Source of the DNA: Clostridia bacterium
GTDB taxonomy: Bacteria; Bacillota; Clostridia; Oscillospirales; CAG-272
Reading direction: 5' to 3'
Assembly: GCA_017397175.1 (NCBI GenBank)
Contig: JAFQKA010000062.1
Location: 1 to 42,064, forward strand
DNA: 42,064 nt
Below are positions 3,519 to 33,189 of this stretch, piece by piece. Positions within the stretch are counted from its first letter, which is position 1. The number at the start of each line of letters is the position of its first letter. The position numbers were made by a program, and so were the translations under genes. Below the pieces are notes generated by a model. The model was given only the letters and a program-made list of their open reading frames with translations, was not told the DNA's origin and ran no database searches.

Positions 3519-3550
3519 GTCAGGGAATTGTTGGAATTTTGCATTTTCTA

Positions 3551-3579
3551 TTGTCATTTTCTGTCGGGTGTGGTAGAAT
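3551..3579 (+). promoter_or_regulatory. SigA-type promoter
   Basis: TTGTCA at 3551-3556 and TAGAAT at 3574-3579, 17-base spacer, 26 bases before the YwaF-like start. Confidence 0.65.
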
Positions 3580-3605
3580 AGGGTAAATAAAAAGGAGGAC
3601 TGTTT

Positions 3606-4373: not shown

Positions 4374-4459
4374 AGGAGACGGATAGGGTTTTGCCAAGTC
4401 AATTTTGTATATTCTTTGTTGATTTTATAGAAATTTTATAGCGATTGTTTGAATACCTA

Positions 4460-4488
4460 TTGACAAATAACGACAAATGTGTTAAAAT
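4460..4488 (+). promoter_or_regulatory. SigA-type promoter
   Basis: A consensus TTGACA at 4460-4465 and TAAAAT at 4483-4488 with a 17-base spacer. Confidence 0.8.
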
Positions 4489-4518
4489 ATTGTTACCATA
4501 ATTTGGGAGGTATTAGAT

Positions 4519-6868: not shown

Positions 6869-6897
6869 TTGCAAACTCTTGTATTGTGTGTTATAAT
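6869..6897 (+). promoter_or_regulatory. SigA-type promoter for the first GH5 gene
   Basis: TTGCAA at 6869-6874 and TATAAT at 6892-6897, 17-base spacer; divergent from and back to back with the minus-strand promoter at 6828-6856. Confidence 0.8.
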
Positions 6898-6924
6898 CCT
6901 AAAAGAAGAAAGAGGGTGTTTCTT

Positions 6925-8329: not shown

Positions 8330-8381
8330 GTAAACAAGAGAGCCGAATTGGCCGCGTACTTGATGATTGAAAGGATTTTTT

Positions 8382-9529: not shown

Positions 9530-10850
9530 ATCTTCTCCGTCTTCTGCGCCTTCTGCCGTGTCTTCCTCTTACCGATGCAACTATGAAAACGTATGCTGCG
9601 GTCAAGGCAATAAGGGCAATGGCACTTGCAATAAACCACCGTTGAGTGGTAAACGACTTGATCCTTTGAAGCGCGTAGAGAAATTCACTTCGCTCCACCT
9701 TGTCGGTAGTGATCAGATCTATCGTGCCCAGGATTTCGTCACCGTATTTTACGGAGATAAATCCCACGACCTGTCCCTCTGCTACGGGAGCCTCAAGCTC
9801 GGGCGCGTTCAATTTCGGCAAAAGCTCGATGTCCTTTGAAACATCAATATCCGAAGGGAGAAAGGCTGTGAGTGAGCCGGCGGGCTTTATTGTCACGTGG
9901 TCTGTGTCCTGCGCCAGAGTCACGGTCATCTCGCCGAGATAGCTGTTGACGTCAAGCACCTTTGTCTCTTTGTATGCGCTGAATGCCCAGTCGATGAGGT
10001 CGCCGGCGATCTCATATGAGCGTATTCTCTTGTTTTGTTCCTCGCCGCCCATTACAACGCAGATGTAGGATTGTCCATTGTATTCCGCCGAGGTTACAAG
10101 GCAATATCCGCCTTGATTTGTATAACCTGCGTTCATGCCCTGCGCGAGGCTGTTATAGTAGGTAGTGTCTATGTATCTTGAAATAAGATAATTTTTGTTG
10201 TATACGTTCCTCAGTTTGCTTTTGTTTGTGGCGGGCATTTCGTATTTGTTTGTGGTCACCGCCTCCATAATAAGAGGGACCTCATATGCCGCCGCGGCAA
10301 CAAGATAGGTGTCGTAGGCTGTGGTCACCATGTTATCGCTGTGCATACCCGAAACGTTTGTGTAGTTGGTGGTTTTTGTGCCAAGCTCTGCGGCTTTTTT
10401 ATTCATCAGATCCACAAATTGATCAATTCCGCCTGCCGCCAGGTGCGCCAATATCGCCGCGCAGTCGTTGTTGCCGCCGCATAGCAGACCGTAAAACATA
10501 TCGCGCACGGTGACGATCTCGCCTGCGGAAATCTTCAGATTGTTTCCCGTGACGCCAACCAGCATCTCCTCTGTCACCTCGATCTGTTCGTCAAGCCTGT
10601 CCGAAAGAAGCTGAGCGGCAACGAGACCCGTCATGAGTTTTACCGTGGACGCAGGGTAGATGACTTTGTCCGCATTTTTTTCTGCCATGACCTTATCTTG
10701 TGTCAAGTTGTAAAGATAGACCGAGGTGGCGCCGTCAAGAGAGGGCATTTCCGCCAGAGCCGAGGAGCAAGGCGAAAAAAACGCGCAGAAAATGAGTGTA
10801 AAGACCGTCAAGCAAAGTAACGACCTTGCGGATTTTTTGTTTTCCTTCAT
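9528..10850 (-). CDS. dacA: D-alanyl-D-alanine carboxypeptidase family (S11), atypical active-site motifs
   Basis: A 440-residue exported protein that would trim the pentapeptide of peptidoglycan. Signal peptide about 1-33 (ending SSALA); S11 domain about 36-295; beta-rich C-terminal domain about 300-380; membrane helix about 405-426; then a tail ending in eight Arg. The nucleophile motif is present as S68-T-V-K71. The other two motifs differ from textbook: where SxN is expected, the sequence is G126-N-N128 in LLCGGNNDC, and where KTG is expected it is N240-A-G242 in GMNAGYT. The surrounding GGYCLVTSA block confirms the alignment. It may be a Clostridia subfamily or have reduced catalysis. 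GAGGAGG precedes the start; it is the last gene of ireB-ribF-dacA, 16 bases after ribF. Confidence 0.85.
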   Translation of the reverse strand: MKENKKSARSLLCLTVFTLIFCAFFSPCSSALAEMPSLDGATSVYLYNLTQDKVMAEKNADKVIYPASTVKLMTGLVAAQLLSDRLDEQIEVTEEMLVGVTGNNLKISAGEIVTVRDMFYGLLCGGNNDCAAILAHLAAGGIDQFVDLMNKKAAELGTKTTNYTNVSGMHSDNMVTTAYDTYLVAAAAYEVPLIMEAVTTNKYEMPATNKSKLRNVYNKNYLISRYIDTTYYNSLAQGMNAGYTNQGGYCLVTSAEYNGQSYICVVMGGEEQNKRIRSYEIAGDLIDWAFSAYKETKVLDVNSYLGEMTVTLAQDTDHVTIKPAGSLTAFLPSDIDVSKDIELLPKLNAPELEAPVAEGQVVGFISVKYGDEILGTIDLITTDKVERSEFLYALQRIKSFTTQRWFIASAIALIALTAAYVFIVASVRGRHGRRRRRRRR

Positions 10851-10866
10851 TTGCCTGCCTCCTCTC

Positions 10867-11820
10867 TCAGAATCCGACCTTCAGTCGGTCAAAATATTCG
10901 TTTGAATTTGCAACATCGCCGTTTATTGCCGCCCGAAGCTCTTCAACCGAGCCGAATTTGCGCTCGGGTCGAAGTCGGGTGAAAAATTCCACTCTTAGTT
11001 CTCGGCCGTAAAGGTCGCCGCTGTATCCGATAATGTGCGTTTCGCAGTTTATTCTGTCCGCGTTCTCGACCGTCGGACGCAGTCCCACGTTTGAAACTGC
11101 ACGGTAGGTTATGCCGTCGATTTTACAGCTTGATGCGTAGATCCCGTTTTTTGGAATGAGAAGCTCCTCCGAAAAAAACTGATTTACCGTTGGAAGACCC
11201 AGGGTTCTTCCAAGCTGTTTTCCGCGCACCACCTTGCCCGTGACGCTGTATGGGTGTCCCAGAAGACGGTTTGCCTTTTCCACCTCGCCCTCAAGCAGAA
11301 GACTTCGGATTCTCGTGGAGCTTATCTCCTGACCCTCAAAGGTCACCTTGTCAACAAGAATGGCACGATCGCCAAATGCCCTTTGAAGCTCGACGTAGCT
11401 GCCTTTGCCGCCGCGGCCGAATCTGAAATTGTATCCGCAGACCACGGCTATGCAGTTGGCCTTGGTTTTCAAAAGGTCGATAAAATCCTGCGGTGAAAGA
11501 TCCCGCAGAGCGGGGAAGTTACCGAGTACGGCGACTTTTGCACCGCTTTTTTTTGCAAGCTCCAGCTTTTGCTCGAGAGTACAGATACGTTTTGGGGGCT
11601 CGGGGGAAAGAAAATCGCAGGGAGGTTTTTCAAAGCAGAATATACCGCCCTTGGCAGACATTTTTTTTGCCACGTCCGCAGCTTTTGCGATCAGAGCCTT
11701 GTGCGCCAGATGTACGCCGTCAAAATTTCCGAGCGCCAAAACAAGGGGCGTGTCCGATCTGTCGGTTTGCGCCCCTTTTTCAAGGTCAATATTCTTCAGT
11801 GCCTTGCTTGTCTCGACCAT
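10867..11820 (-). CDS. ribF: Bifunctional riboflavin kinase/FAD synthetase
   Basis: A 317-residue cytosolic enzyme that makes FMN and then FAD from riboflavin and ATP. The N-terminal nucleotidyltransferase half shows LGNFDGVHLAHKAL (about 30-43), FCGYN-type FRFGRGGKG and the ISSTRIR motif; the C-terminal riboflavin-kinase half shows GKQLGRTLGLPTVN and the GIYA strand. Length is normal for the family (about 310). In Bacillota ribF usually sits behind truB and rpsO; here it lies between ireB and dacA, 20 bases after the former and 16 before the latter. The start ATG has only a weak ribosome site, so translation may be coupled to ireB; there is no better in-frame start before the first motif. 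Confidence 0.95.
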   Translation of the reverse strand: MVETSKALKNIDLEKGAQTDRSDTPLVLALGNFDGVHLAHKALIAKAADVAKKMSAKGGIFCFEKPPCDFLSPEPPKRICTLEQKLELAKKSGAKVAVLGNFPALRDLSPQDFIDLLKTKANCIAVVCGYNFRFGRGGKGSYVELQRAFGDRAILVDKVTFEGQEISSTRIRSLLLEGEVEKANRLLGHPYSVTGKVVRGKQLGRTLGLPTVNQFFSEELLIPKNGIYASSCKIDGITYRAVSNVGLRPTVENADRINCETHIIGYSGDLYGRELRVEFFTRLRPERKFGSVEELRAAINGDVANSNEYFDRLKVGF

Positions 11821-11840
11821 GCCCGTGTCTGACTTTTTGA

Positions 11841-12092
11841 TTATTTAAGTCCCAGATAGCTTCGAACGAGAGCGTTAAGCAGCTCGTCGCGGTCGATCTT
11901 GCTGATAAGGCTGCGGGCACCGTTGTGATTCGTGATGTATGTAGGATCCTCGGAAAGCAGGTATCCGACTATCTGGTTGATGGGGTTGTAGCCCTTTTCG
12001 CTCATGGAGTCGTAGACCGAGCGAAGGATCTTGTGCATCTCCTCTTCCTTGCCGTCGGGGATCGTAAATGTTATGGTTTGTCCGTGTGCCAT
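11841..12092 (-). CDS. ireB: IreB-family regulatory phosphoprotein
   Basis: An 83-residue protein of the IreB/YrzL (DUF965) family. The block [18 protein letters not shown] is the family signature, followed by the [13 protein letters not shown] end. In Enterococcus faecalis IreB is a substrate of the Ser/Thr kinase IreK and lowers cephalosporin resistance; phosphorylation there is on N-terminal Thr residues, and this protein has Thr at positions 6, 8 and 10. I start at ATG 12092, which gives the family's normal N-terminus; the open frame continues to 12164 but adds 24 unfamiliar residues. A small hairpin (ATTCCGC/GCGGAAT-like) separates the upstream AGAAAGGA from the ATG. Usual partners alaS, ruvX and yrzB are absent; ribF and dacA follow in the same transcript. 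Confidence 0.9.
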
Positions 12093-16181: not shown

Positions 16182-16219
16182 GGTAAAAATCAGACATGTG
16201 TCTCCGAAAGGGTAAGAAT

Positions 16220-18064
16220 ATGAGAAAAATTGCAAGAATTTTGGAAATATTTTCTTTTTTTGCCGCGCTTTGCGCTGTTTTGTGCGTTGCGGCGAGCGCG
16301 TCTCTTGACGATTTTACCACCGCTTACGGTGATATCACTCCCGAAAACGGCTACGTGCATATCGGTGTTCACAATAATTCTGCGGGCACTGCTGCTGCCA
16401 CCGATTCGGACGGAGACGGCAAGGTGGAACAATATCTGACCAAAGGATACAATGCTTATTTCAATGAATCCACGGAGACTCTTGTGCTGATCTCTGTGGG
16501 GACGTATACCGGTGACTACGGTGACTGGAGCGTGACAAGCACCAAAAATACTCCCGGTAAAACCTATTTTCTCGCTTATTGGGCGGACAAAGGCGGACTT
16601 GGAAACCACACGAAGGTAAAGCATATTGAGATCCGCGGAGGCACGGCTTTCAATAATATCAGCTACGGCATACAGGCCTTTGTGTCTGTTCGGGACATAA
16701 AAATCGATTCCTCGATCGTATCTATGAGCGGTCAAAAGGAGGATACCGGCTTGTTCCACGGTCTGACGTCTCTTGTTTCCGTGGGTCACGGAAGCTTCTC
16801 AAAGACCGACGGCACCTTCGTTCCAACCACCTATAAGGAAGGTGTGGCAGATCTGTCGGGCTTCGGGAAGATCGCTCCCAACGGAAACCTCGATTTTCCG
16901 GACGGCGTTATGCTTGGAGGACATATGCTCAACGGAACGGCGGTGAAAAAGCTGATCCTGCCCGCTTCCATGACGGCAAAATCCGGTGCTTCATACCCCG
17001 AGACCGCTTACGTTGACGGCGTTCTCTGCTACGTGCTCGACACGGCGAAGGCCGCGAGCTTTTCTTCCTCCGCTTTTGAAAAGGACGGTGTCTGGTACAG
17101 CCCGAATAACAACGACGGAAAGAACGCCCGGAAGATCAATGCCGCAGAGGATATCTACGGCGGAGAATACAGAGGAATAATCCCTCACAGCGTGGCAAGA
17201 AAATGCCTTGACCTTCGGGAGGTGGTTTTCGGTGCTCCTGTGCTTGAAATCATAGAGCCGTATGCCTTTGCGGACTGCAAAAATCTCAACCTGCTCTGCA
17301 TTATGGGATCGGTTTCCGAGACGCTTTCTGTTGCGAAAGATGCTTTTTCCGGGGTCTATGATCTGACTGTGCGCCTCAACACCGTGCAGGACGCTCAGAG
17401 ATTCGGCGCGGCCATTGCGGCGGCGGGAATTAAAAACATTTTTCTTGAAATTGCAAATGCCGGAGACAGCGATCCTGTGAAAAATCCACTTACCGCCGAG
17501 GGATTCGCCATAAGAATATCGGGATATAACGGTTTGAGAGGACTGTTCTCCTTTGACGATTCAAAGATGGCAAGTAATGCATTACAAGGCTTTTCTCTTG
17601 TGGAATACGGTGTTGTGGCAACGTCAGGAGAGATTTACGACAGCCTCGGAAGTGCCGAGGGCGTTTTTTCCAACCTGATGGCGGATAACGTGATCCGGGT
17701 GCCCATATATGCCGTTGACGGCTCGGGCGTCAACCGTTACGTTGACGTGAGGACAAAGACTTTTTGCGTGACGATCACTCATATTCCGGATTTCAATTAC
17801 AAATCGGATATTTACATGATGAGCTACGTTCTTATGGAAAAGGACGGAGTAAAATACAGAATGTTCTGCGAGTATGAATATGAAAAGGACGGGAAAAACA
17901 AACGGACGATCAGCATTTTTGATACCGCGTGGGGGCTTTACCGTCAGGGACTTATCAGCGAAGAGCTTTGTCCCGAATTTGACACGGTGATAGCACCTAT
18001 CCTCAGATACGGCGGTATTACCCTCGCTGTGCCGACCGCGAAAAGGAAAGAATACTTTATATGA
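16220..18064 (+). CDS. Secreted leucine-rich-repeat (BspA-like) protein
   Basis: A 614-residue exported protein. Residues 1-28 are a signal peptide with likely cleavage after ASA. The middle has BspA-type LRR_5 units: KKLILPASM, LREVVFGAPVLEIIEPYAFADCKNLNLLCI; these proteins bind host or plant surfaces or other cells in gut Clostridia. The N-terminal part (about 30-190) contains an Asp-rich TDSDGDGK loop that resembles a calcium site and a beta-rich region of unknown type. The last 170 residues resemble the unassigned C-terminal module (EYGVVA ... YMMSYVLMEKDG) that is often found in Clostridia surface proteins. No sorting motif or membrane anchor, so it may be released. ATG 16220 follows GAAAGGG; in-frame upstream codons from 16196 are inside the promoter zone. 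Confidence 0.7.
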   Translation: MRKIARILEIFSFFAALCAVLCVAASASLDDFTTAYGDITPENGYVHIGVHNNSAGTAAATDSDGDGKVEQYLTKGYNAYFNESTETLVLISVGTYTGDYGDWSVTSTKNTPGKTYFLAYWADKGGLGNHTKVKHIEIRGGTAFNNISYGIQAFVSVRDIKIDSSIVSMSGQKEDTGLFHGLTSLVSVGHGSFSKTDGTFVPTTYKEGVADLSGFGKIAPNGNLDFPDGVMLGGHMLNGTAVKKLILPASMTAKSGASYPETAYVDGVLCYVLDTAKAASFSSSAFEKDGVWYSPNNNDGKNARKINAAEDIYGGEYRGIIPHSVARKCLDLREVVFGAPVLEIIEPYAFADCKNLNLLCIMGSVSETLSVAKDAFSGVYDLTVRLNTVQDAQRFGAAIAAAGIKNIFLEIANAGDSDPVKNPLTAEGFAIRISGYNGLRGLFSFDDSKMASNALQGFSLVEYGVVATSGEIYDSLGSAEGVFSNLMADNVIRVPIYAVDGSGVNRYVDVRTKTFCVTITHIPDFNYKSDIYMMSYVLMEKDGVKYRMFCEYEYEKDGKNKRTISIFDTAWGLYRQGLISEELCPEFDTVIAPILRYGGITLAVPTAKRKEYFI

Positions 18065-18169: not shown

Positions 18170-18198
18170 TTGACAAATTATTTTTCCTATGATATAAT
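18170..18198 (+). promoter_or_regulatory. Strong SigA promoter of the opp operon
   Basis: TTGACA at 18170-18175 and TATAAT at 18193-18198 are perfect consensus with a 17-base spacer. A leader of about 140 bases follows, containing a hairpin (18242-18265) and a leader ORF. Confidence 0.9.
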
Positions 18199-18241
18199 CT
18201 GTGTACTGATATCCATATAATTTTCGGTCGGATCATTACGC

Positions 18242-18265
18242 GCACGAGCGAAAAAAGCTCGATGC
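18242..18265 (+). promoter_or_regulatory. Hairpin in the opp 5' leader
   Basis: GCA-CGAGC pairs with GCTCG-A-TGC around a GAAAAAA loop, with one bulged A. It lies in the untranslated leader upstream of the leader ORF. No known riboswitch class was recognised. Confidence 0.5.
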
Positions 18266-18304
18266 CCGATGCTCAAAGGGTTGTGCGGCGGAGGTTTTGA
18301 CTGT

Positions 18305-18328
18305 ATGGAATCAAGAATTTCTTATTAA
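18305..18328 (+). CDS. Possible leader peptide MESRISY
   Basis: An ATG at 18305 opens a seven-codon frame ending in TAA at 18326-18328. GGCGGAGGT (18287-18295) lies at ribosome-site distance in front. The stop codon touches the AAAAGGAG site of oppA, so translation of this ORF would deliver ribosomes to the oppA start. Whether it is translated is not known. Confidence 0.4.
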   Translation: MESRISY

Positions 18329-18343
18329 AAGGAGAAAACAAAA

Positions 18344-20524
18344 ATGAGCAAGAAACTTTTGTGCCTGCTTCTGTCTTTGATTATGATCGTTTCTGTTTTC
18401 GCTGCTTGCGGCAAGACTGATAACGGTGATGATAAGGGCAATGAAGGCGAAACTGCAACTCCTGTTGACCCCTATGCGGGCAAGGAGCACGCTGAAATCT
18501 CCGAAGACCTCTACAACAAGGTTCTCGGCGAGTTCGACACTTACTACAAGGCTGCAAAGGCAGCAACAACTGTTTCCGAGAGATTCGCTCTCATGGCTAT
18601 CGCTGAGGCAAAGCTCCTCTCCACAGGTGTAATGCTTCCCTCTACTGCACAGGGCGGTAACTATGCGATCTCCAGAATCGTTCCTTACTCCATCTCTTCT
18701 GTTCTTTGGGGTAACGATTCCGACAGATTCTACACAGCACTTATCGTAAACGAGGATCCCCTCACTCCCGCTCTCCGCGACGAGATGAAGGCTAAGTGGG
18801 CTGAGTGCGCAACTGCTGACGAGTACTTTGCATGGGTAAAGGCATTCGTAGCTGAAAAGGGCTTCACACTTGCTGACACTTATAACCTCGGCTATACATC
18901 CGACCCCAAGACTTGGGACGCACTTGCAACCTCTAAGGCTGCTGACTCCGAAGCTATCGTAAACACTTACGACGGTCTTCTTGAGTACGATGCAAAGAAC
19001 AACCAGGTTCCTGCACTTGCAGAGTCCTACACAGTTTCCGAGGACGGCCTCGTTTACTCTTTCAAGCTCCGTGAGGGCATCCAGTGGGTAGACTACCAGG
19101 GCAAGGCAATCGAGGAAGTTACAGCTGACAGCTTTGTATACGGTTTCCGTCACATGCTCGACGCTGCAGGCGGTCTTGAGTACCTCGTTCAGGGCGTAGT
19201 TAAGGGCGCATCCGAGTACATCGCAGGCGAGATCACTGACTTCGCTGAGGTTGGTGTTAAGGCTGTTGACAAGTACACAGTTGAGTACACACTCGAGGCT
19301 CCTACATCCTACTTCACAACAATGCTCGGCTACAACGTATTCGCTCCTATGTCCAAGACTTTCTATGAGTCCAAGGGCGGTGTATTCGGAGTTGAAGAGT
19401 ACGCAACAGCTATTGCTGACGCTGACAAGTACACATACGGTACATCTCACGAGAACATCGCATACTGCGGTCCTTACCTTGTAAAGAGTGCAGTTGCTGA
19501 AAACTCCATCGTATTCGAAGCTAACCCCTCTTACTGGAACACAGAGAAGGTTCAGATCAAGACTCTGTCCTGGAAGTTCATCTCCGGTAAGAACGCAACT
19601 GAGTCCTACGACCTTATGGTTGACGGCACATTCGCAGGTTCCGGTCTTAACTCCGATGCAGCTGCAAAGGCAAAGGCTGACGGCAACTTCGAGAAGTATG
19701 CTTACGTTTCTTCTACAGACGCTACTTCTTACCCCGTATTCATGAACGTTTACCGTGCACAGTACGGTAACTACAACGACGAGACAGTAGCTCCCACAAC
19801 CTTCACAGATCTTGAGAAGGTTAGAGCTAACCTGGCTATGCAGAACAAGAACTTCCGTCTCGCTCTTACAACATCTCTTGACAGAGGTGCTTACAACGCA
19901 ACAACTGTTGGCGATGACCTCAAGTTCGCTTCTCTCGTTAACTCCTACACACCCGGTAACTTCGTTAAACTCGATGAGGAAGTAACAGTTAAGATCAACG
20001 GCACAGACAAGACATATGCTGCAGGCACATTCTACGGCCAGATCATGCAGGATCAGCTCGATGCTGACGGCATTAAGGTTAAGGTTTGGGATCCTAAGGC
20101 AGATGGCGGCATCGGTGCTTCCTTCGGTTTCGACGGCTGGTACAACGTTGACTACTGCCGTGAGCTTCTCGCTAAGGCTGTTGAAGAGCTCAAGGCTGTA
20201 AACGTTGAGATCACAAAGGAGAATCCTCTTAAGCTTGAGATTCCTTACTACGATATCTCTGATATCTATTCTAACCGTGCAGCTGCTCTCGAGCAGTCTA
20301 TCGAGGCTTCCACAGAGGGTCTCGTTGACATCGTTACTATCAAGTGCGGTGGCGAGGATGCTTACAACTGGTACTACGCAACATACTTCCCTGAGGCAGG
20401 CGACGACATGAACTTCAACCTTATGGATAACTCCGGTTGGGGTCCTGACTACGGTGATCCTCAGACATACCTTGACACAATGTTCCTTGGCGGTTACATG
20501 GTCAAGTGCATCGGTCTGTACTAA
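18344..20524 (+). CDS. oppA: Oligopeptide-type ABC transporter substrate-binding lipoprotein, apparently permuted
   Basis: A 726-residue lipoprotein (signal 1-21, lipobox VFAAC) of the family 5 binding proteins that catch peptides for the importer encoded downstream. The canonical start of the fold (NTYDGLLEYDAKNNQVPALA, SFKLREGIQW) only begins near residue 205. The protein ends soon after GWGPDYGDPQTYLDTM, about 130 residues before a normal OppA would. The missing end appears to be at the front: YYKAAKAATTVSERFALMA and IAEAKLLSTGVMLPSTA resemble the C-terminal AEQQLDKDSAIVPVYYY region of E. coli OppA. This points to circular permutation. Codon use is strongly biased, as for highly expressed genes. 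AAAAGGAG precedes the ATG. Confidence 0.85.
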   Translation: MSKKLLCLLLSLIMIVSVFAACGKTDNGDDKGNEGETATPVDPYAGKEHAEISEDLYNKVLGEFDTYYKAAKAATTVSERFALMAIAEAKLLSTGVMLPSTAQGGNYAISRIVPYSISSVLWGNDSDRFYTALIVNEDPLTPALRDEMKAKWAECATADEYFAWVKAFVAEKGFTLADTYNLGYTSDPKTWDALATSKAADSEAIVNTYDGLLEYDAKNNQVPALAESYTVSEDGLVYSFKLREGIQWVDYQGKAIEEVTADSFVYGFRHMLDAAGGLEYLVQGVVKGASEYIAGEITDFAEVGVKAVDKYTVEYTLEAPTSYFTTMLGYNVFAPMSKTFYESKGGVFGVEEYATAIADADKYTYGTSHENIAYCGPYLVKSAVAENSIVFEANPSYWNTEKVQIKTLSWKFISGKNATESYDLMVDGTFAGSGLNSDAAAKAKADGNFEKYAYVSSTDATSYPVFMNVYRAQYGNYNDETVAPTTFTDLEKVRANLAMQNKNFRLALTTSLDRGAYNATTVGDDLKFASLVNSYTPGNFVKLDEEVTVKINGTDKTYAAGTFYGQIMQDQLDADGIKVKVWDPKADGGIGASFGFDGWYNVDYCRELLAKAVEELKAVNVEITKENPLKLEIPYYDISDIYSNRAAALEQSIEASTEGLVDIVTIKCGGEDAYNWYYATYFPEAGDDMNFNLMDNSGWGPDYGDPQTYLDTMFLGGYMVKCIGLY

Positions 20525-20563
20525 TTCTAACCCGATTAGGTACGATCTGATTATTTAAGTGGC

Positions 20564-20590
20564 GAGGGGATAGAAATTTTCTATCCCCTC
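20564..20590 (+). other. Hairpin without U-tract after oppA
   Basis: GAGGGGATAGAA pairs with TTCTATCCCCTC; no T-run follows. Such hairpins after binding-protein genes often protect the upstream mRNA end or reduce read-through. Confidence 0.6.
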
Positions 20591-20645
20591 TGTCGCATGA
20601 AATCGGGTATTTTTAACACATAATAAATTGACTTTGCAAATCCTG

Positions 20646-20668
20646 ACCGCGCGCGGTTGCGCGGTTTT
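20646..20668 (+). terminator. Short GC-rich hairpin with TTTT before oppB
   Basis: ACCGCGC (20646-20652) pairs with GCGCGGT (20659-20665), loop GCGGTT, followed by TTT. It ends 28 bases before the oppB start and may be a partial terminator. Confidence 0.55.
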
Positions 20669-20695
20669 CAAAATAAATTATCGGGAAATGATATT

Positions 20696-22297
20696 ATGAC
20701 AAAATATTTGCTTAAGCGAATCGTTCTCGGTCTTCTCTCGGTTGTTGTGGTCGTTGCGATCGTTATGATCCTTATCTTCACCTTCACCGACCGCGAAAAG
20801 ATATTTAACGGTGACGGCATCTACACAAAGATGTCCAATAACGACCGAGAAATGTATAAGTATTCGCAGTGGGAAAAATACGGATACCTTGATTACGTTC
20901 AGTACACAGATTATCTGATGGCACTGGCAAAATCAGGTGAAATAACAGAGGAAACCCGCGCCGATGCTGCAAAAATTGCACGTAAGGTTGACGGGAATTC
21001 CGGCGTTGTGGCGGAATACGTCGCAAAATTTAAGGAGCACTATGAGGCTCAGGGCTACAAGGTGCTTTATCTTGATGCCAAAATGCTCACGCCTACCAAG
21101 CTTGCATTGGGAGGAAAGCAGCAATACTTTGCATACAAGGATACACCTATTATCAATCGTATGTTCTCCTTCTTTGGCAGACTTGTAAACATTGATAATA
21201 TTCATTACGTTGAAGATGACATAGAGGACAGAGGTCTGACCTTTACTCTCTATGATCCCGTATATAACACGGAAGACGGAACCGGTGAGGTGGTGGAGAA
21301 GAAGTTCTCTCCCGCTATCATGGGTAACGGAACCCGCCATAAGTATCTGCTCTACTTTGATTCCAGATTCCCCTATATCCATCAGAATCTGGTGACGATC
21401 AGACTTGGTACCTCCTATTCCGTAAACCGTAACGTGGACGTATTTGACACTATGGTTCAGACCCAGGGTGCTTACGTTCAGTCCACTATGACCTATCCTA
21501 CCGGTCTTACAGAGTCGAGCGCTGACGATTTGCATACGGCTACCTATTCTTCCGCCGGAACACATCTTTCCACTCCCATTCTTTCCGACCGCTTCACAGA
21601 CGATTACACGAACGTATCGCCTTACCGTCAGAATAAGTCGAGACTCGGCTACTCCTTCGTTATCGGCGTTATCGCTTCTATTCTTGCGTACTGCGTAGGT
21701 CTTCCTATCGGTATTCTTATGGCGAGAAAGAAGGACAAGCTGCTCGATAAGATCGGTACCTTCTATATTATCTTCATCATCGCCTGCCCGTCCCTTGCAT
21801 ACATCTTCATGGTTCAGGCACTTGGTCGTGCGGCAGGTCTGCCACACTATTTCGATCTGATGAAGGAAACTCCCTTGATGTATATCCTGCCCATCGTGTC
21901 CCTGGCAATGCCTTCCATTGCAAACCTTATGAAGTGGCTCCGCCGCTACATGATCGACCAGATGAACTCGGATTACGTAAAGTTTGCCCGCTCCGGCGGT
22001 CTTACCGAGGGCGAGATATTCAGAAAGCACATCTTCAAGAACGCTGCTATTCCGATCATTCACGGTATCCCCGGAAGTATTCTCAGCTCTCTTGTAGGTG
22101 CGATCATTACCGAGAAGATCTACTACGTGCCCGGTGTAGGTAATATGCTTACCAACGCTATCGCACTTTATGATAACGCCGTTATCGTAGGTCTCACTCT
22201 CTTCTATGCGCTCATTTCTATCACAGCGATCATTCTCGGCGATATTCTTATGTCTATCGTAGACCCGAGAATCTCTTTCAGCAGTAAAGCGAGGTAA
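20696..22297 (+). CDS. oppB: Oligopeptide-type ABC permease with large external insertion
   Basis: A 533-residue inner-membrane protein; usual OppB is about 310. Residues 8-30 are the first helix. Residues about 31-315 are predicted outside and replace the usual loop of about 70: its ends still resemble OppB (KYGYLDYVQYTDYLMALAKSG near 61-80 and LGTSYSVNRNVDVFDTM near 237-253), so about 150 residues are inserted between. Helices 2-6 follow, with the EAA coupling loop SDYVKFARSGGLTEGEIFRKH at about 425-445 that contacts the ATPases. ATG 20696 is used; GGGAAATG is only a weak ribosome site and the in-frame upstream codon 20657 lies in a hairpin. oppC follows 6 bases later. Confidence 0.9.
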   Translation: MTKYLLKRIVLGLLSVVVVVAIVMILIFTFTDREKIFNGDGIYTKMSNNDREMYKYSQWEKYGYLDYVQYTDYLMALAKSGEITEETRADAAKIARKVDGNSGVVAEYVAKFKEHYEAQGYKVLYLDAKMLTPTKLALGGKQQYFAYKDTPIINRMFSFFGRLVNIDNIHYVEDDIEDRGLTFTLYDPVYNTEDGTGEVVEKKFSPAIMGNGTRHKYLLYFDSRFPYIHQNLVTIRLGTSYSVNRNVDVFDTMVQTQGAYVQSTMTYPTGLTESSADDLHTATYSSAGTHLSTPILSDRFTDDYTNVSPYRQNKSRLGYSFVIGVIASILAYCVGLPIGILMARKKDKLLDKIGTFYIIFIIACPSLAYIFMVQALGRAAGLPHYFDLMKETPLMYILPIVSLAMPSIANLMKWLRRYMIDQMNSDYVKFARSGGLTEGEIFRKHIFKNAAIPIIHGIPGSILSSLVGAIITEKIYYVPGVGNMLTNAIALYDNAVIVGLTLFYALISITAIILGDILMSIVDPRISFSSKAR

Positions 22298-22303
22298 AGA
22301 AAT

Positions 22304-23281
22304 ATGAATGAAAATTTAATAGATCTCACTGACCTCGGCTTGTCTGAGGAGGAGCTGTTCACTCACGTTGAAAACAGCGCTGCAGATGCGGAAAAGATCA
22401 CCGCGCCCAGATATTCTTACTGGCGCTCGGTTCTTCGCGTGTTCTTCCGCAAGAAGATCAACACCGTTATCCTGCTTATTCTTGCATTTCTTGTTGTGTT
22501 CTCTTTCGTTTATCCCATTTTCTCGGGCTACGACGCTACCGCAAACGTAATCGTTGAAGGCGGAAAGAATCTGAACCCCTCCGATGCTATGGATAAGTAC
22601 GGACACAATATTCACTGGATCCTTGGCTCCGGCCCCGCGGGTGAGTCCGTATTTGACAAGCTCTGGTCCGGTTCCAGAATTTCTCTTGCTCTTGCGTTCG
22701 TTTGCGCAATTATCAACATGACCATCGGCGTCGTTATCGGTGCTGTTTGGGGATTCTCAAAGAAGTTCGATATTATCATGACCGAGGTTTACAATATCGT
22801 AGGTAACGTACCTTATATCCTTTTGATCTCGGTTATCGTTATGATCCTGACCGCAAGCTTCTGGAGCATGGTCTTTGCCTTGACTCTCACAGGCTGGCTG
22901 GGTATCGCCTACTTTATCAGAACCCAGGTTATTATTATCCGTGACCGCGAGTATAACCTTGCTTCCCGCTGTCTGGGCACGTCTACTATGCGTATTGCTA
23001 TCAAGAATATCCTGCCCTTCATGGTTTCCGTTATCGTAACTCTGGCGGCAACCGAGATCCCTTCGTATATTTCTTACGAGGCGTTCCTTTCCTATATCGG
23101 TCTGCAGATGTCCGATATGTCTTTGGGTAAGATCATCGAGCGTGCAAGCGCAAGTATGTTTACTCCAGGCCGTGAGCTTCAATTCTGGGCTCCCGTTGCG
23201 GTTGCATCTGTCATTACAGTCGTTCTTTACGTGGTTGGTCAGAACTTAGGTGACGCTTCCGACCCCAGAACGCATATGTAA
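22304..23281 (+). CDS. oppC: Oligopeptide-type ABC permease
   Basis: A 325-residue partner of OppB, of normal size. It has an N-terminal cytosolic stretch of about 50 residues, six helices and the EAA loop EYNLASRCLGTSTMRIAIKN (about 225-244), where the G is at the expected place. The usual motif HWFGTDSLGRDLFSR after the first external loop is altered to HWILGSGPAGESVFDKL, so one of the most conserved sites of the family deviates. GAGGTAAAG precedes the start; it is 6 bases from oppB and 10 from oppD, consistent with tight co-expression. Confidence 0.93.
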   Translation: MNENLIDLTDLGLSEEELFTHVENSAADAEKITAPRYSYWRSVLRVFFRKKINTVILLILAFLVVFSFVYPIFSGYDATANVIVEGGKNLNPSDAMDKYGHNIHWILGSGPAGESVFDKLWSGSRISLALAFVCAIINMTIGVVIGAVWGFSKKFDIIMTEVYNIVGNVPYILLISVIVMILTASFWSMVFALTLTGWLGIAYFIRTQVIIIRDREYNLASRCLGTSTMRIAIKNILPFMVSVIVTLAATEIPSYISYEAFLSYIGLQMSDMSLGKIIERASASMFTPGRELQFWAPVAVASVITVVLYVVGQNLGDASDPRTHM

Positions 23282-23291
23282 GGAGGACAGC

Positions 23292-25043
23292 ATGGAAAAC
23301 AATAAGAAATTGTTGCTGTCCGTCAAGGATCTGCACGTAAAATTCCGCGTAAGAGGAAGAATCCTCACCGCTATCCGCGGTATTTCCCTTGATATTTACG
23401 AAAACGAGTCGATCGCCATCGTTGGTGAGTCGGGATCGGGTAAATCCGTATTTACCAAGACCTTTGCGGGTATGCTTGATGAAAACGGATATATCAGCCA
23501 GGGTGATATCATCTTTAATGACGACGAGCTGGCTGAAACGTACGTTGATTATACGGAATCCAAGAAAAAGCTGGTTGCATCTCTTGCTCTCAGACTTAAC
23601 AAATTCTCAAAGCTTGAGCTTGGTGCCCGGACTTACTGCAAGATGAAAGAGCTTGAGTTGGAAGAAAACGGCAAAATGAGCATTTCCGCTCAGCGCGAGC
23701 AGGAATTTAACGATATTATTGCCGACCTCACCTTTAAGATGACCGAGCTGTTTAATCGCCGTCAGACTATGGACCGCAAGAACGAAAAGGCGGAAATTGC
23801 GGATACTACCGCTAAGATCAATGCCTATAAGGCAGAGATAAAGCGCCTTGAAGAAGAACTTGCAAAGGAAAAAGCAGCAAACAAGGCGATCTATAAAAAC
23901 GACACTGCAGCAATTGCAAATTACAATGCGGAAATGGCTGCGCTTCGCGCACAGTACAACAGCGAGATCACCGGAAATATCTCCGACGAGACCGTTGCGA
24001 GAAATCTCAGAATTGCAAAGGAAGTATACCTTTCTGTCGGAAGATTTGGTTATGCAAAGGGCAAGAAGCTGACCCGTGAGCTGATGAACGCGCTTAAAAC
24101 GGCTATGACTATCGGTGTCGATCTCTCTGACGAGAACGAGCTGAACCGTGTGTTCGATACTATCATTTTCCGTGTTCGCTATATTGACGAAAGTGAAGAC
24201 AAGCTCCACGGAAGATGTGTTCTGAACCTGGCAAAGATCAAGGATACCAAGGACTGGACACAGATCAGAGGTAACCGAATCGCCACTGTCTTCCAGGATC
24301 CCATGACCTCTCTTAACCCTATTATCACTATCGGAAAGCAGATCTCCTCCATCATTATGAAGCATCAGCACTGCACCGAGCTTGAGGCAAGGGAGAGAGC
24401 TATATCCATGATGAAAAAGGTTGGTATTCCCAACGCCGAAAAGCGTTTCGATGACTATCCTTTCCAGTATTCCGGCGGTATGAGACAGAGAATCGTTATT
24501 GCGATCGCTCTTTCCTGCCAGCCAAAGATCCTTATTTGCGACGAGCCTACAACGGCTCTTGACGTTACCATTCAGGCTCAGATCCTGGATCTTCTCAAGA
24601 AGCTCCAGAGAGAGTTTAATTATACCATCGTATTTATCACCCATGACCTGGGAGTTGTTGCGAATATCGCCGACCGCGTCGCCGTTCTCTACGCAGGACA
24701 GGTGGTCGAGCTTGGCAACGTAAACGAGGTATTCTACGATCCCCGTCATCCTTACACATGGGCACTTCTGTCCTCCTTGCCCCAGTTGGCAGAAAGACAG
24801 TCGAAGCTCTTCTCGATCTCGGGTACGCCTCCGTCCCTCTATAACACGATCGTTGGCGACCCCTTTGCACCGAGAAATCAGTATTGCATGAAGATCGATA
24901 CTCTCAAAGAGCCTCCTATGTTCCGTGTCACGGATACACACTATGCAAAGACCTGGCTTCTTGATCCCCGTTCGCCTAAGGTTGAAAAGCCCGAGGCGAT
25001 CCATAACATTCACGAGAAGCTCAGTAATGCGTTCAATATTTAA
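23292..25043 (+). CDS. oppD: Oligopeptide-type ABC ATPase with a 230-residue insertion
   Basis: A 583-residue ATPase; usual OppD is about 330-350. Walker A GESGSGKS at 45-52, Q-loop Q335 in TVFQDPMTSLNP, signature YSGGMRQR at 393-400, Walker B ICDEP at 415-419, H-loop H451; the C-terminal oligopeptide domain ends near 583 with only some of the iron-sulfur-like Cys pattern. Normal spacing between Walker A and the Q-loop is about 50 residues; here it is 283. The extra part (about 80-320) has a charged coiled-coil stretch (about 160-225, Lys/Glu/Ala-rich) and a helical remainder. All catalytic motifs look intact, so the ATPase should work. AAGGAGG precedes ATG 23292. Confidence 0.92.
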   Translation: MENNKKLLLSVKDLHVKFRVRGRILTAIRGISLDIYENESIAIVGESGSGKSVFTKTFAGMLDENGYISQGDIIFNDDELAETYVDYTESKKKLVASLALRLNKFSKLELGARTYCKMKELELEENGKMSISAQREQEFNDIIADLTFKMTELFNRRQTMDRKNEKAEIADTTAKINAYKAEIKRLEEELAKEKAANKAIYKNDTAAIANYNAEMAALRAQYNSEITGNISDETVARNLRIAKEVYLSVGRFGYAKGKKLTRELMNALKTAMTIGVDLSDENELNRVFDTIIFRVRYIDESEDKLHGRCVLNLAKIKDTKDWTQIRGNRIATVFQDPMTSLNPIITIGKQISSIIMKHQHCTELEARERAISMMKKVGIPNAEKRFDDYPFQYSGGMRQRIVIAIALSCQPKILICDEPTTALDVTIQAQILDLLKKLQREFNYTIVFITHDLGVVANIADRVAVLYAGQVVELGNVNEVFYDPRHPYTWALLSSLPQLAERQSKLFSISGTPPSLYNTIVGDPFAPRNQYCMKIDTLKEPPMFRVTDTHYAKTWLLDPRSPKVEKPEAIHNIHEKLSNAFNI

Positions 25044-25061
25044 GAAAGGCAGGTCGGTTTT

Positions 25062-26375
25062 ATGAAAACAAACAAAGATGAAAAAGTAAAAGTAAGACAC
25101 CTGCCAGAGCATGGACCTCTGGACGAAAACGGCAGAGAAGTCCTGCTGTCTCTTGAAAACGTTGACATTACCTTCGGTAAGGGTGACAAGGCCGTAAGAG
25201 CCGTAAAGAACGCTACCTTTGATATTTATAAGGGTGAGACCTTTTCACTGGTTGGTGAGTCGGGTTCGGGTAAGACTACGATCGGTCGTGCGGTTATCCG
25301 TGTAAACCCCTGTGCTAACGGACGTATCCTCTATAAGGGTGTTCCGATCTCGGGTAAGATCCCGAAATCGCTTGACCGTGAGGTCATCAGAAATATTCAG
25401 ATGATCTTCCAGGATCCTGCGGCATCTCTTAATGAGCGTGCAACTGTTGACTATATCATTTCCGAGGGTCTTTACAACTTCAAGCTCTTCAAAAGCGAAG
25501 CAGACAGGGTTGCAAAGGTTGAAAACATGATAGAGGAGGTCGGTCTGCTCCGCGAGCATCTGACCCGTTATCCTCACGAGTTCTCGGGCGGTCAGCGTCA
25601 GAGAATCGGCGTAGCACGTGCCATGGTCATGGAGCCTGAACTGGTAGTTGCGGACGAGCCTATCTCGGCTCTTGACGTTTCTATTCGCGCACAGGTCCTG
25701 AATCTGCTGAAAAAGTTCCAGCAGGAAAGACAAACAACTTATCTCTTTATTGCCCACGACCTTTCTATCGTTCGATTCATTTCGGACAGAATCGGCGTTA
25801 TCTATAAGGGTGATATCGTTGAGGTCGCAGATGCTGAGGAGCTTTTTGACTATCCTCTGCACCCCTATACAAGATCTCTGATCTCCGCCATCCCGATCCC
25901 CGATCCTGAGCTTGAAAAGCGCAAGAAGCTGTTCGCTTACGATCCTTCTGTTCACGATTACAGCGAATGTGAGCCGTCTCTTCAGGATATCGGTCACGGA
26001 CATTACGTTTTCGGAAGCGACAGTGAGATCGCAGAGTACAAGCGTATCCGCGAGTCAGGCACACCTCTCAAGTCTATCACAATTCTGACGGACGAGGAGA
26101 TGGAGGCTGAGGCTCAGGCGCATAAGGGTGAAGAAACGGATGAGACCTCCATTCTGGATACTCCTATCCACGATACGGGAAACATTCTTTACACTATCGG
26201 TTCATTTATTCCTGTGGTCGGTACTATTGCAGGCTTTATTGCAGGAGCCATTTTCAAAAAGCATAACTATATCCGTAACTATAAGGCGTGCAAGAGAGGT
26301 GCTATTGCCGGTCTGTGTACCTTTGGTGCTATAATCGGCCTGTTCGGTCTCGCACTGCTTTCCTCTCTGCTATGA
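25062..26375 (+). CDS. oppF: Oligopeptide-type ABC ATPase with C-terminal membrane hairpin
   Basis: A 437-residue ATPase; usual OppF is about 320-340. Walker [10 protein letters not shown] 65-73, Q117, signature FSGGQRQR 174-181, Walker B VVADEP 195-200, H232; the oligopeptide-binding-protein-type C-terminal domain continues to about 340 with [15 protein letters not shown]. The last 95 residues are not part of the family: an acidic linker ([17 protein letters not shown]) and two hydrophobic segments (about 374-397 and 412-436). This would tether the ATPase itself to the membrane. GAAAGGCAGG precedes the start, 18 bases after oppD. The last four bases ATGA are the start of the next gene. Confidence 0.92.
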
Positions 26376-27640
26376 GAAGAAGTAAGGGAAGAGACAACAC
26401 GCCGTCAATAAAACCCGTTCAAAAAATCGAGCTCTCCGAAAAGGGAGTAAAGAAAAGAGCCATCCTTGCGGTGGCTCTGCTCGCTTTTGGACTTGTTTTT
26501 CTCGGGGTTGCGATATTTAATTGGCTCAGCTATGATGAGGGATGGACCCGAATTGAGCCGACATCGGAGTCTTCCGAAAGCGTTTCCTCCGATATGATAT
26601 TGCTATATGAGCTTGGGGTGTCGGATACGTCTGCTACCGCCGAGTACAAGGCCTTATCGGTACTTTACACGGAGCTGTGCAAAAAGGCATATCGAATCTT
26701 CCACGCAGATTACGGATTTGAGGATGTTCACAATCCTTATTATATCAACCGCAATATCGGGCAGGAAATAGAGGTGGAGCCTGCACTCTACCGCGTATTT
26801 GAGCAGATAGACCGAGCGCAGAACAGATTTTTGTTTGCTGCTCCGTTTTATACGGAATACAGAAATATGTTCTATGACACGGAGGATTTCTCTGCTGCAC
26901 AGTTTGATCCCTATAAAAGTGAGGACGTGGCAAAATATTTTGCGGAGCTGTCCGTTTATACGTCCAGCGAGGAGCACGTAAGGCTTGAGCTTTTGGGCAA
27001 TAATAAGGTGAAGCTGTACGTTTCCGACGAATTTCAGACCTTTGCGCAAGAGAACGCTATTGATACCTTTATTGATTTTTTCTGGGCAAAAAATGCGTTC
27101 ATCGTTGACTATATTGCCGAATCGCTTGTTGAGGAAGGATACTTGTACGGAAGTATTTCCGCCTACGATGGATTTATGAGGACCTTTGACCCAAGAAAGG
27201 ATTCTTCATATTCCTATAATCTGATAAGCAGGTACGACGGCAAGGTATATGATGCGGGAACGCTTGAATATAAGGGAGAAAACAGTATCGTTTTTCTTCG
27301 TCCATTCAAGACGAGCGACAGAGATATGATCTACTATCGCTACGAGGACGGCACGGAGCGTCACGGATACGTTGACGTAAAGGACGGGCTGTGCAAAAAC
27401 GCCCTCAACACGTTGGTTTCATATTCGCGTGACCGTAGCTGCGGCGAGGTACTTCTTTCCGTTATTCCGATCTATATTGCAAATGATTTTGACGGAGAAA
27501 AACTCAAAGGCCTTGCACAAAAAGGAATCTACTCTATTTATTCTGATGGTGCCGTACTTTGCTATAACGAGGAAGCGGTTGCCCTGAAGGATCTTTTTGA
27601 CGACGGTAAGACAAAGTTCACAGCGTCACTTGTAAAATAA
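26372..27640 (+). CDS. Opp-operon membrane protein of unknown function
   Basis: A 422-residue protein I cannot assign to a family. It starts with about 28 basic cytosolic residues, one membrane helix (about 29-51), and then an acidic domain of about 370 residues that should be outside the cell. It has few Cys and no repeat or known catalytic motif. The ATG overlaps the oppF stop (ATGA), a sign of translational coupling and of a role linked to the transporter. It could bind peptides, be a proteolytic partner or contact the enlarged OppB loop; all this is inference. A strong terminator follows at 27640-27680. The frame is open upstream to 26288 but that part overlaps oppF. Confidence 0.8.
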
Positions 27641-27680
27641 AAAGAAGCGCACCGCTCAAAGTGGTGCGCTTCTTTTTTAA
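27640..27680 (+). terminator. Strong intrinsic terminator of the opp operon
   Basis: A 16-bp stem (27640-27655 with 27661-27676, one G-U), loop TCAAA, then a T-run. Confidence 0.92.
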
Positions 27681-31233: not shown

Positions 31234-33189
31234 ATGGAGGTCAAGATAGTTTATAAAGGGCAAAATCCTTTTTTCAGAATCAACGGAGCCGACTATTCCA
31301 CAGAAGCTTTTCGTTCGTACCGTCCCGCGCCTGCAAATATTTCGCAGTTCAAGCGTGTGGGGCTGGATTTTTATCAGATGATAGTCTCGGGCAGAAAAAA
31401 TACGCTCAACATTTATTCCTCACTTTTCGGTGAGATCTGGACGGGACCAAATGAGTATAATTTCAGCAGATTTGACAGACAAATGGAGATGTTTCGTAAA
31501 TTTGCTCCCGACAGCTACTATTCCGTTCTGATTCAGATAGACACTCCCGAATGGTGGGTGGAATCTCACCCAGGTCATGTTGACAGCTATTGGTTTTTGG
31601 GACAGAGCACCATTGACGAGGAGTGGAAAAGAGATGCCGCCGAGTATTTGCGCGCATTTATTGATTACGCCGAGGAAAAATACGGTGACGTGATCTTCAG
31701 CTACAGTATTGCGGCAGGACGTTGCAATGAGTGGTTCTGCAACGATTTTGGCGCGGAAACACCCCAAAAGCTGGCGGCTTATCGGGCTTATCTTAACGAT
31801 CCCGAAGCAAAAATTCCCGAGCGTGAAAATTATTCTGCCGAGGAAAGTTGCTACCGTTCACCCGACAGTAACGAGCTGAAATATCTGCAGTTTTCCTGCT
31901 GTCTGCACGCGGATATGATCTGCTATTTTGCCGCCGAGGCACAGAAGTCCCTTTGCCATAAAAAGCCCTTTTGTATGTTCGGTTGGTATACCCATATGTC
32001 CCCGAAAAATCAGAATCTGTGGCTGACCAACGGTTACGAAAAGATACTTGAAAGCCCCGATATTGATATGGTCTATTCCCCCGCGCCCTATCAGCACAAC
32101 CGTGATATTGACGGCGTAAGCTCCTATCAGCTGCCCCTGGATTCCCTGAAACTCCACGGAAAGCTTTATCTCCACGAGATGGATCACCGCTCCGAGTTGG
32201 CGGCCTATCCTCTTGAAAATGGTGTTGTTCTCGGTCAGAGGATCGACAATTTCTCGGATTTCAAAAACGTTCTTCGCCGTGAGATCTGCAACGTGGTCGC
32301 TCACGGGGGCTCTATGTGGTGGTTCGATTTCTTTGGCGGTTACTATGCTGCGCCCAACTATGAGCAGGAGCTTTGTGACCAGTTCAAGTTCTATAATGAA
32401 ATTATCGAGTGCCCCAACGACGACGTTTCCCAGGTTGCGGTATTCTGCGATCCCATGTCCTTCCTTTATTGCCGCGAGCACGTGGATCTGCACCAGACTA
32501 CGGTTCGTTACAATTTAGATTCAATAATCCGCTCGGGTGCGCCGTTCAGATTCTACAATTTGAACGACCTCGATAAGATAGATATTGACCGTTTCAAAGT
32601 GTTCATTTTCCTTAATGCCATTGATCCCCAAAACCGCGAGTTTATCAAGGAAAGGCTGGCAGATAAGTACAAGGTGTTCATTGGTGCGGCGGGATATTCG
32701 TATGGCGGCAAGCTTGATACCGCAGGAATTGAGGACCTGACGGGCATCAAGGTGAGTGAGTTTAAGACCGACCGTGTGCATACCGTTTCCTATTCGGGCC
32801 GCGAGTTCGGCTTTGAAGACATTGTTTCACCCATGTTTCTCGTTGAGGACGACCAAGCTGAAATTTTGGGAGAATACGCGGACGGCGGCGCGGCGATCGC
32901 GCGAAAGGGCAAGAGCTTCTACTGTGCCGTGGGCAACATTCCCTACGAATTTTTCCTTGACGTGAACCGCGCGGCAGGCGTGCATATTTACAACGACGAG
33001 GGTGGAGCAATCGCTGTTACGTCCCACATGATCTCCTGCTACGGAAAACAGGAAGAGAACACGCTTCGTCTGCCCTTTGACTGTACTCTCACCGATCTTT
33101 ATACGGGCGATGTGATAAGGACGGAGAACGGGATTGCAAAATATACAGACAAGGTTTTTGAGACAAGAGTTTTCAAGATAACAAAATAA
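31234..33189 (+). CDS. GH42-like beta-galactosidase-type glycoside hydrolase
   Basis: A 651-residue protein with no signal peptide, so it should act on imported sugars. The N-terminal barrel (about 30-380) has the clan A pattern: ISQFKRVGLDFYQM, the acid/base in AGRCNEWF (N165-E166) and a likely nucleophile in LYLHEMDHRS (E315). The middle (about 405-600) looks like the GH42 trimerisation domain (glutamine-amidotransferase-like, with DLDKIDIDRFKVFIFLNA), and a short beta domain ends the protein. Similar proteins are often annotated as beta-galactosidase; the low similarity means the sugar may be different. AAAGGGGGG precedes the ATG. Monocistronic with its own promoter and terminator, just behind the KDG pathway. 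Confidence 0.75.
   Translation: MEVKIVYKGQNPFFRINGADYSTEAFRSYRPAPANISQFKRVGLDFYQMIVSGRKNTLNIYSSLFGEIWTGPNEYNFSRFDRQMEMFRKFAPDSYYSVLIQIDTPEWWVESHPGHVDSYWFLGQSTIDEEWKRDAAEYLRAFIDYAEEKYGDVIFSYSIAAGRCNEWFCNDFGAETPQKLAAYRAYLNDPEAKIPERENYSAEESCYRSPDSNELKYLQFSCCLHADMICYFAAEAQKSLCHKKPFCMFGWYTHMSPKNQNLWLTNGYEKILESPDIDMVYSPAPYQHNRDIDGVSSYQLPLDSLKLHGKLYLHEMDHRSELAAYPLENGVVLGQRIDNFSDFKNVLRREICNVVAHGGSMWWFDFFGGYYAAPNYEQELCDQFKFYNEIIECPNDDVSQVAVFCDPMSFLYCREHVDLHQTTVRYNLDSIIRSGAPFRFYNLNDLDKIDIDRFKVFIFLNAIDPQNREFIKERLADKYKVFIGAAGYSYGGKLDTAGIEDLTGIKVSEFKTDRVHTVSYSGREFGFEDIVSPMFLVEDDQAEILGEYADGGAAIARKGKSFYCAVGNIPYEFFLDVNRAAGVHIYNDEGGAIAVTSHMISCYGKQEENTLRLPFDCTLTDLYTGDVIRTENGIAKYTDKVFETRVFKITK

Follow-up and report, generated by a model that had tools for sequence, protein, structure and literature searches.

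We analysed a stretch of 42,064 nucleotides (hereafter, the window) from a Clostridia bacterium of the Oscillospirales (GenBank assembly GCA_017397175.1, contig JAFQKA010000062.1, forward strand), which is contig C44 of a 1.52-Mb assembly that is 72% complete. The window carries a six-gene operon, oppA-oppB-oppC-oppD-oppF followed by a gene for a membrane protein, here termed X (Table 1), and its most unusual member is a circularly permuted OppA. Pfam clearly assigned the five Opp subunits, each domain scoring above its curated cut-off, and the gene set of an Opp/Dpp-type importer is complete within the one operon, namely an SBP_bac_5 binding protein, two BPD_transp_1 permeases, and two ATP-binding cassette (ABC) ATPases with oligo_HPY tails. 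Homology gives good support for a function in peptide import. A first-pass annotation, made from the sequence alone, had described the six-gene operon, and all six open reading frames (ORFs) were found at the place and on the strand that it gave; likewise, the overlap of the X start with the oppF stop as ATGA and the single hydrophobic segment of X agreed with its description of a coupled, single-pass protein.

Table 1. Genes and features of the opp operon in the window (aa, amino acids).
Feature	Position	Strand	Basis or remark
Sigma-70-like promoter, TTGACA, 17-base spacer, TATAAT, upstream of oppA	18170..18198	+	Read by eye; consensus match only
Six-gene opp operon, oppA-oppB-oppC-oppD-oppF-X	18344-27640	+	ORFs
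oppA, peptide-binding lipoprotein (SBP_bac_5), 726 aa, lipobox Cys22, circularly permuted	18344..20524	+	Pfam, alignments
Transposed OppA segment, residues ~56-165, corresponding to the C-terminal end of ordinary binding proteins	18509..18838	+	Alignments
OppA linker, residues ~166-178, old C-terminus to old N-terminus	18839..18877	+	Between matched parts; limits approximate
W699-G-P-D702, equivalent of AliD W498/D501	20438..20449	+	New C-terminus lies 24 residues further on
RNA hairpin between oppA and oppB	20559..20596	+	-26.7 kcal/mol
oppB permease, 533 aa	20696..22297	+	Pfam BPD_transp_1, residues 335-527
OppB enlarged extracellular domain, residues ~31-312	20786..21631	+	Hydropathy
oppC permease, 325 aa	22304..23281	+	Pfam BPD_transp_1 and OppC_N
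oppD ATPase, 583 aa	23292..25043	+	NF043079, residues 8-579 to profile 1-557, one stretch
OppD insert, residues 85-310, Walker A to Q-loop	23544..24221	+	Alignment, profile
oppF ATPase, 437 aa	25062..26375	+	Pfam ABC_tran and oligo_HPY
OppF C-terminal predicted membrane hairpin, residues 375-433	26184..26360	+	Hydropathy
X (sixth gene), 422 aa, single-pass, diverged ApbE-like outer domain	26372..27640	+	Profiles, hydropathy
X transmembrane segment, residues 31-49	26462..26518	+	Hydropathy
X ApbE-like domain, residues 92-406	26645..27589	+	hhalign to 11 ApbE proteins

As judged by several alignments, which showed what the first-pass annotation had suspected, a stretch of ~110 residues that ends an ordinary binding protein now precedes the old N-terminus in OppA. 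A phmmer search against solved structures returned pneumococcal AmiA (8a42) as the best OppA match (E = 2.7e-65), and the two proteins aligned in swapped order, with OppA residues 179-713 matching AmiA 15-497 and OppA residues 61-154 matching AmiA 524-620; taken alone, the latter match was weak (i-Evalue 0.037). As ordinary references we took 12 binding proteins from the same phylum and excluded one incomplete protein (L118), leaving 11. By BLASTP, OppA 56-172 matched the C-terminal end of all of these (11/11, E = 1.3e-8 to 3.5e-5), and OppA 179-726 matched the part preceding that C-terminal end in the same 11 proteins (E = 6e-84 to 1e-40). Consistently, hhalign aligned the moved segment with the ordinary binding proteins at 97.8% (E = 9.9e-13), and the best of 30 column-shuffled controls reached 1.5%. 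The ordinary N-to-C order of an Opp/Dpp binding protein was not found in the window OppA, of which Pfam covers only residues 222-716 because the segments are permuted. We also considered a duplication intermediate among the ordinary binding proteins and rejected it: the moved segment fits their C-terminal end, and further matches were weak (E = 0.035 or worse).

For the geometry of the permuted protein we relied on AliD. In AliD, W498 and D501 of domain III clamp the amino terminus of the peptide; domain III spans residues 297-582, the last piece of domain I 583-617, and the C-terminal helix 622-652 (PMC11192437). Both the W and the D of the clamp are kept in 46/46 aligned OppA copies, 24-26 residues from the new C-terminus. 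By homology with the AliD limits, we infer that the new OppA ends open inside domain III and that the old C-terminus, i.e., the last domain I strands and the helix characteristic of Ali proteins, forms the bridge to the old N-terminus. A simple lipobox pattern occurs in 36/46 OppA copies, some of the misses being over-long start calls or alternative lipobox spellings, and the tether to the lipid anchor is 27-76 residues long (36 copies measured). One locus, L181, holds two permuted OppA genes (2609-4804 and 9866-12025), which suggests duplicated binding proteins serving one permease.

OppB, OppD, and OppF are remodelled as well. The enlarged outer domain of OppB sits between hydrophobic segments 9-27 and 322-340 and adds ~180-235 residues relative to the ordinary OppBs compared; the first-pass annotation had noticed this extension and put it too low, at about 150 residues. 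Ordinary OppBs lack it, except for that of L108 (499 aa), which matches it partially. A search of solved structures (E <= 1e-5) yielded four sequences, with best stretches within residues 315-528, and no OppB relative with the enlarged domain. The OppD insert, previously estimated at about 230 residues, was confirmed at residues 85-310 by comparison with ordinary OppDs, and the tail of OppF contains two hydrophobic segments (375-397 and 415-433), as expected from the membrane hairpin predicted earlier. The loss of iron-sulphur cysteines was rejected as a special feature of OppD, since ordinary relatives mostly have no cysteines there either. A shortened OppD insert (OppD of 523 aa) occurs in L183, L184, L185, and L190, from several assemblies, with X still present.

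The first-pass annotation gave the sixth protein no family and missed its likeness to ApbE. X-profile searches weakly retrieved ApbE proteins of the order, and the sole match of the X profile in the PDB was TM1553 (E = 0.014), which we take to be an ApbE protein. From 14 weak X-like places we assembled a comparison set of 11 proteins, each of which Pfam confirmed as ApbE (11/11). Against this set, X aligned by hhalign at 98.5% (E = 2.9e-15), collinearly over 279 columns, and a second X set aligned at 96.9%. We then mapped the catalytic triad of FmnB, Asp301-Ser257-His273 (PMC8906456), by motif reading to the invariant ApbE positions 309, 266, and 282. The triad was intact in 11/11 ApbE proteins versus 0/66 aligned X proteins, and none of the latter has His at the triad column (0/66). 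An intact GGN and Lys195 are likewise found in 0/66 X proteins, which carry a motif of their own there, mostly D-G-F or D-G-Y, and retain the middle glycine of GGN in 66/66. X as an active ApbE was rejected on the absence of an intact triad, and X is most likely, though not certainly, a pseudoenzyme descended from ApbE without its active site. Because basic residues precede its hydrophobic segment, the large domain of X probably lies outside. Ordinary ApbE proteins occur separately in genomes of the order.

To follow the remodelled parts across genomes, as the first-pass annotation had proposed, we used loci chosen by OppA score (the window, L034-L036, L084-L106, and L119-L198), so that the counts show the companions of this OppA and not the frequency of each part on its own. 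In total, 107 loci passed, and removal of 7 near-copies (OppA identity of 99% or more) left 100; at least one assembly contributes two of these (L174 and L186), and permutation was assumed for L121, L163, and L164, in which the start of OppA is missing. The extended OppB was present in 92/93 scorable loci, the short OppB frame of L183 (385 aa) being counted as not extended. The OppD insert was present in 81/83 (76 full, 5 half-length, and 2 with none), the OppF C-terminal tail with its predicted hairpin in 71/77, and X downstream in 71/77, at most 150 bases from oppF in 65/71 of these. Losses of X and of the hairpin mostly do not coincide: one subgroup (L100, L101, L102, L104, and L105) has X without the OppF hairpin, L162, L170, and L173 have the hairpin without X, and only L189 lacks both. 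An obligate pairing of X with the hairpin was rejected, as each occurs without the other in several loci. Three Butyrivibrio operons are without X, and a search of the rest of these three genomes yielded none either; ten ordinary operons (L108-L117) contained no OppD insert, no OppF hairpin, and no X.

The six-part set is coherent yet separable. Given that X and the hairpin can go missing one without the other, we regard permuted OppA and extended OppB as the core of the system, to which X and the hairpin are accessory. The first-pass annotation had expected the extra parts always to occur together, which holds for OppB and nearly so for the OppD insert, but not for X and the OppF hairpin, each missing in 6/77 loci. 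Its proposal would have failed had the parts been random single insertions or the sixth gene not conserved beside opp; the parts mostly travel as a set, and X is conserved at that place in most loci and missing there in the 6/77. Its suggestion of a distinct transporter class stands insofar as this is a coherent operon class whose gene order is constant across the examined loci, but the OppB domain appears not to be new and the OppD insert is not, as set out below.

Among 59 relatives (own genome included), full-length OppA and X were each found in 4, the same genomes in both cases and with the same six-gene order. Wider searches sampled the order and the phylum, both larger groups than the samples drawn. 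Full-length permuted OppA occurred in 24/394 genomes of the order (own included) and in 2/398 of the phylum draw, i.e., the window's genome and Butyrivibrio hungatei DSM 14810 (G553); 8 further genomes of the order matched OppA only within residues 172-567. The OppD insert was detected in 26/389 genomes of the order, comprising 24 with permuted OppA plus G105 and G385, in which the contig ends before oppA. In the phylum draw, full-length matches to the Mollicutes OppD model (E <= 1e-130) were confined to the window's genome and G553. Strong X matches (> 280 bits) were obtained in 13/285 genomes; in 11 of these X directly adjoined oppF, and in 2 it lay at a contig edge. The best 80 of 437 relatives from a scan of named genomes are mostly uncultured and labelled Clostridia, Ruminococcus, Oscillospiraceae, Lachnospiraceae, Roseburia, and others; many of their titles name rumen or gut, and two are Butyrivibrio isolates (Butyrivibrio hungatei DSM 14810 and Butyrivibrio sp. 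INlla14). Overall, the permuted-OppA arrangement recurs in 100 non-redundant loci. An OppC tree placed 89 permuted-type operons on one side of a branch and 10 ordinary operons on the other (support 96), which, with only 10 ordinary rows of which one is long-branched, fits a single origin of the permuted-type operons.

We propose, with a probability of roughly 0.6, that the operon encodes an Ami/Opp-type, ATP-driven peptide importer of Clostridia that combines a permuted OppA with an AmiC-sized OppB domain, a Mollicutes-type OppD insert, and an ApbE-like, non-catalytic X. In such a transporter, OppA would still work as a two-lobed peptide trap. Because the new OppA ends appear to open in domain III, the lipid anchor, where present, would be attached to lobe 2 and not to lobe 1, and lobe 1 would be left free to move or close against the large OppB outer domain. 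X would most likely be an external subunit with a docking or stabilising role and no catalysis, and the OppF hairpin may hold the motor pair to the membrane, both being optional extras on the core of permuted OppA and extended OppB. More tentatively, and as a conjecture in which we place limited confidence, the permutation may have shifted the tether to the other lobe to work with a wedge-like OppB domain, and a dead flavin-transferase fold may have been recruited as a permanent outer subunit.

Several observations weigh against this proposal. The fold, the lobe placement, and the contacts are drawn from homology. Window X, searched as a single sequence, has no Pfam match; across X members, Pfam matched ApbE in 4/23 (best E = 4.4e-5) and, in a second set, in 5/47 (best 0.0079), no better than stray matches to unrelated families. 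The X/ApbE alignment is uncertain near the triad, where one triad-side column is a gap in 64/66 X proteins and gaps occur close to the Ser; the Asp309 position is acidic in 57/66 (40 Glu, 17 Asp), and in 12/66 a His stands no more than three columns away from the lost triad His. Operons L171 and L189 have neither OppD insert nor X, and no X match was found in their genomes. Permuted operons are without X in five genomes (G553, G805, G806, G808, and G809), and in a sixth, G807, X lies on another contig that yielded no Opp subunit (L296, 1153-2352, minus strand), its opp operon (L143) having no adjacent X; X is thus not essential. Four other assemblies of the same genus hold neither X nor full-length OppA, so that the system is patchy. 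Finally, the OppA proteins of L134 and L181 seem to be exported but not lipid-anchored, an argument against an essential anchor and against an anchor-driven arrangement.

Competing explanations address different parts of the proposal. The swapped order of OppA could in principle reflect an assembly artefact or a spurious N-terminal match, as the moved segment aligns with ordinary proteins over only ~100 residues at 25-36% identity; however, that match is significant against the shuffled controls, oppA is one open frame, and the arrangement is present in the two Butyrivibrio isolates as well as in many separate assemblies, and we consider an artefact extremely improbable and refuted by these independent genomes. 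It is very unlikely, too, that the importer carries a non-peptide substrate. The same fold is found in binding proteins for metal chelates, sugars, and opines, and the phmmer list holds nickel and sugar binders, weakly, but AmiA, AliB, AliC, and AliD are far ahead of all other PDB relatives, and the W/D clamp for the peptide amino terminus is invariant among the aligned copies. Somewhat less improbable, though still unlikely in our view, is that X handles flavin as an active or re-wired enzyme and shares a transcript with the importer since flavin and peptide scavenging are co-regulated. The collinear ApbE homology, the largely acidic triad Asp position, and the invariant middle glycine of GGN would fit such an enzyme, whereas the loss of the intact triad, of its His, and of intact GGN and the conserved Lys in all 66 aligned X proteins argues against it, as does the separate encoding of ordinary ApbE in genomes of the order.

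The permutation might alternatively be neutral drift, in which a duplication and partial deletion in one ancestor was carried along by the operon and it is irrelevant where the anchor sits; we hold this to be possible, at about the same low level as the tether-shift conjecture itself. The OppC tree fits one origin, sequence reveals no functional difference, two OppA copies look unanchored, and the authors of the Treponema pallidum study discussed below likewise saw no obvious advantage (PMC4990184). Set against drift are the retention of the arrangement throughout the 100 non-redundant loci, nearly always with the enlarged OppB, and the publication of an unrelated family of permuted, tethered sugar-binding proteins (PMC4990184). 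We prefer the peptide importer with a permuted, lobe-2-tethered OppA and a non-catalytic X. Should this be correct, the X family, which is unnamed in Pfam and NCBIfam, gains a likely context.

Elsewhere in the operon, the RNA hairpin between oppA and oppB is far more stable than expected (z = -7.3; 0/200 shuffles reach its free energy) and is possibly an RNA processing or attenuation element. Immediately 5' of the operon lies a 622-aa ORF (16196-18064, plus strand) with a likely signal peptide, read by eye, and no Pfam match at 1e-5; a 651-aa ORF at 31234-33189 (plus strand) is also without a Pfam match at 1e-5. The window further contains two adjacent family-5 glycoside hydrolases (Pfam Cellulase; 428 and 375 aa; 6886-8172 and 8367-9494, plus strand) and, in this bacterial genome, a TMEM164-family membrane protein (3606-4373, plus strand; PF14808, E = 4.9e-37).

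Compared with known systems, the OppB outer domain and the OppD insert appear to be already known kinds and not new. The Ami system of Streptococcus pneumoniae (AmiA/AliA-D, AmiC, AmiD, AmiE, and AmiF) includes the closest solved relative of the window OppA, AmiA. The enlarged extracellular region of AmiC occupies residues 31-278 of 498, and in the pneumococcal model one AmiC outer domain is wedged between the binding-protein lobes and a second supports lobe 1 (PMC11192437). The outer domain of the window OppB agrees with that of AmiC in place and size, as judged by the published limits. Ami binding proteins keep the ordinary order, unlike the window OppA, and the available text of PMC11192437 names no sixth protein like X. 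The Mollicutes-type Opp models (NCBIfam MMSYN1_0165 to 0169) form the best NCBIfam group for all five window Opp subunits. The OppD model covers the window OppD end to end, insert included (1-557 of 561), at 719.8 bits, just below its cut-off of 740, which the G553 OppD exceeds (756). The OppF model, MMSYN1_0168, is longer (649 positions), and the 437-aa window OppF matched it in three stretches with 448 bits versus a cut-off of 800. In the OppA model, MMSYN1_0169, a WGPDYGDP-like stretch lies at 707-736 of 896 positions, leaving room for an ordinary C-terminal end, and no NCBIfam model matched the moved OppA segment alone at E <= 1.

X resembles the ApbE/Ftp/FmnB flavin transferases (PF02424) over most of its outer domain and matches the ApbE profile, but differs by its single transmembrane anchor, by the missing triad, and by its place in the searched genomes, where, one displaced copy excepted, it adjoins this operon type or sits at a contig edge. 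A literature search of partial coverage found nothing linking ApbE to a peptide importer. Within the same coverage, which makes it weak evidence of absence, no permuted peptide-binding protein was found, and the sole published precedent was TpMglB-2 of T. pallidum. TpMglB-2 is a naturally permuted, membrane-tethered, glucose-binding lipoprotein of the Type I fold, with homologues in treponemes and gut Gram-positives termed 'Type Ic / Cluster Bc' sugar-binding lipoproteins; its authors proposed that tethering may have driven the permutation (PMC4990184). It thus shares with the window OppA a natural circular permutation and, through its homologues, a presence in gut Gram-positives, both being tethered ABC binding proteins; in TpMglB-2, however, the first N-lobe strands lie near the C-terminus, whereas OppA belongs to another fold class and carries its C-terminal end at the front. 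If our proposal holds, these unrelated families together would make permutation a repeated tethering solution in gut bacteria, and a second permuted binding protein of a different fold class, for whose ordinary relatives a docking model is published (PMC11192437), makes the tethering idea testable.

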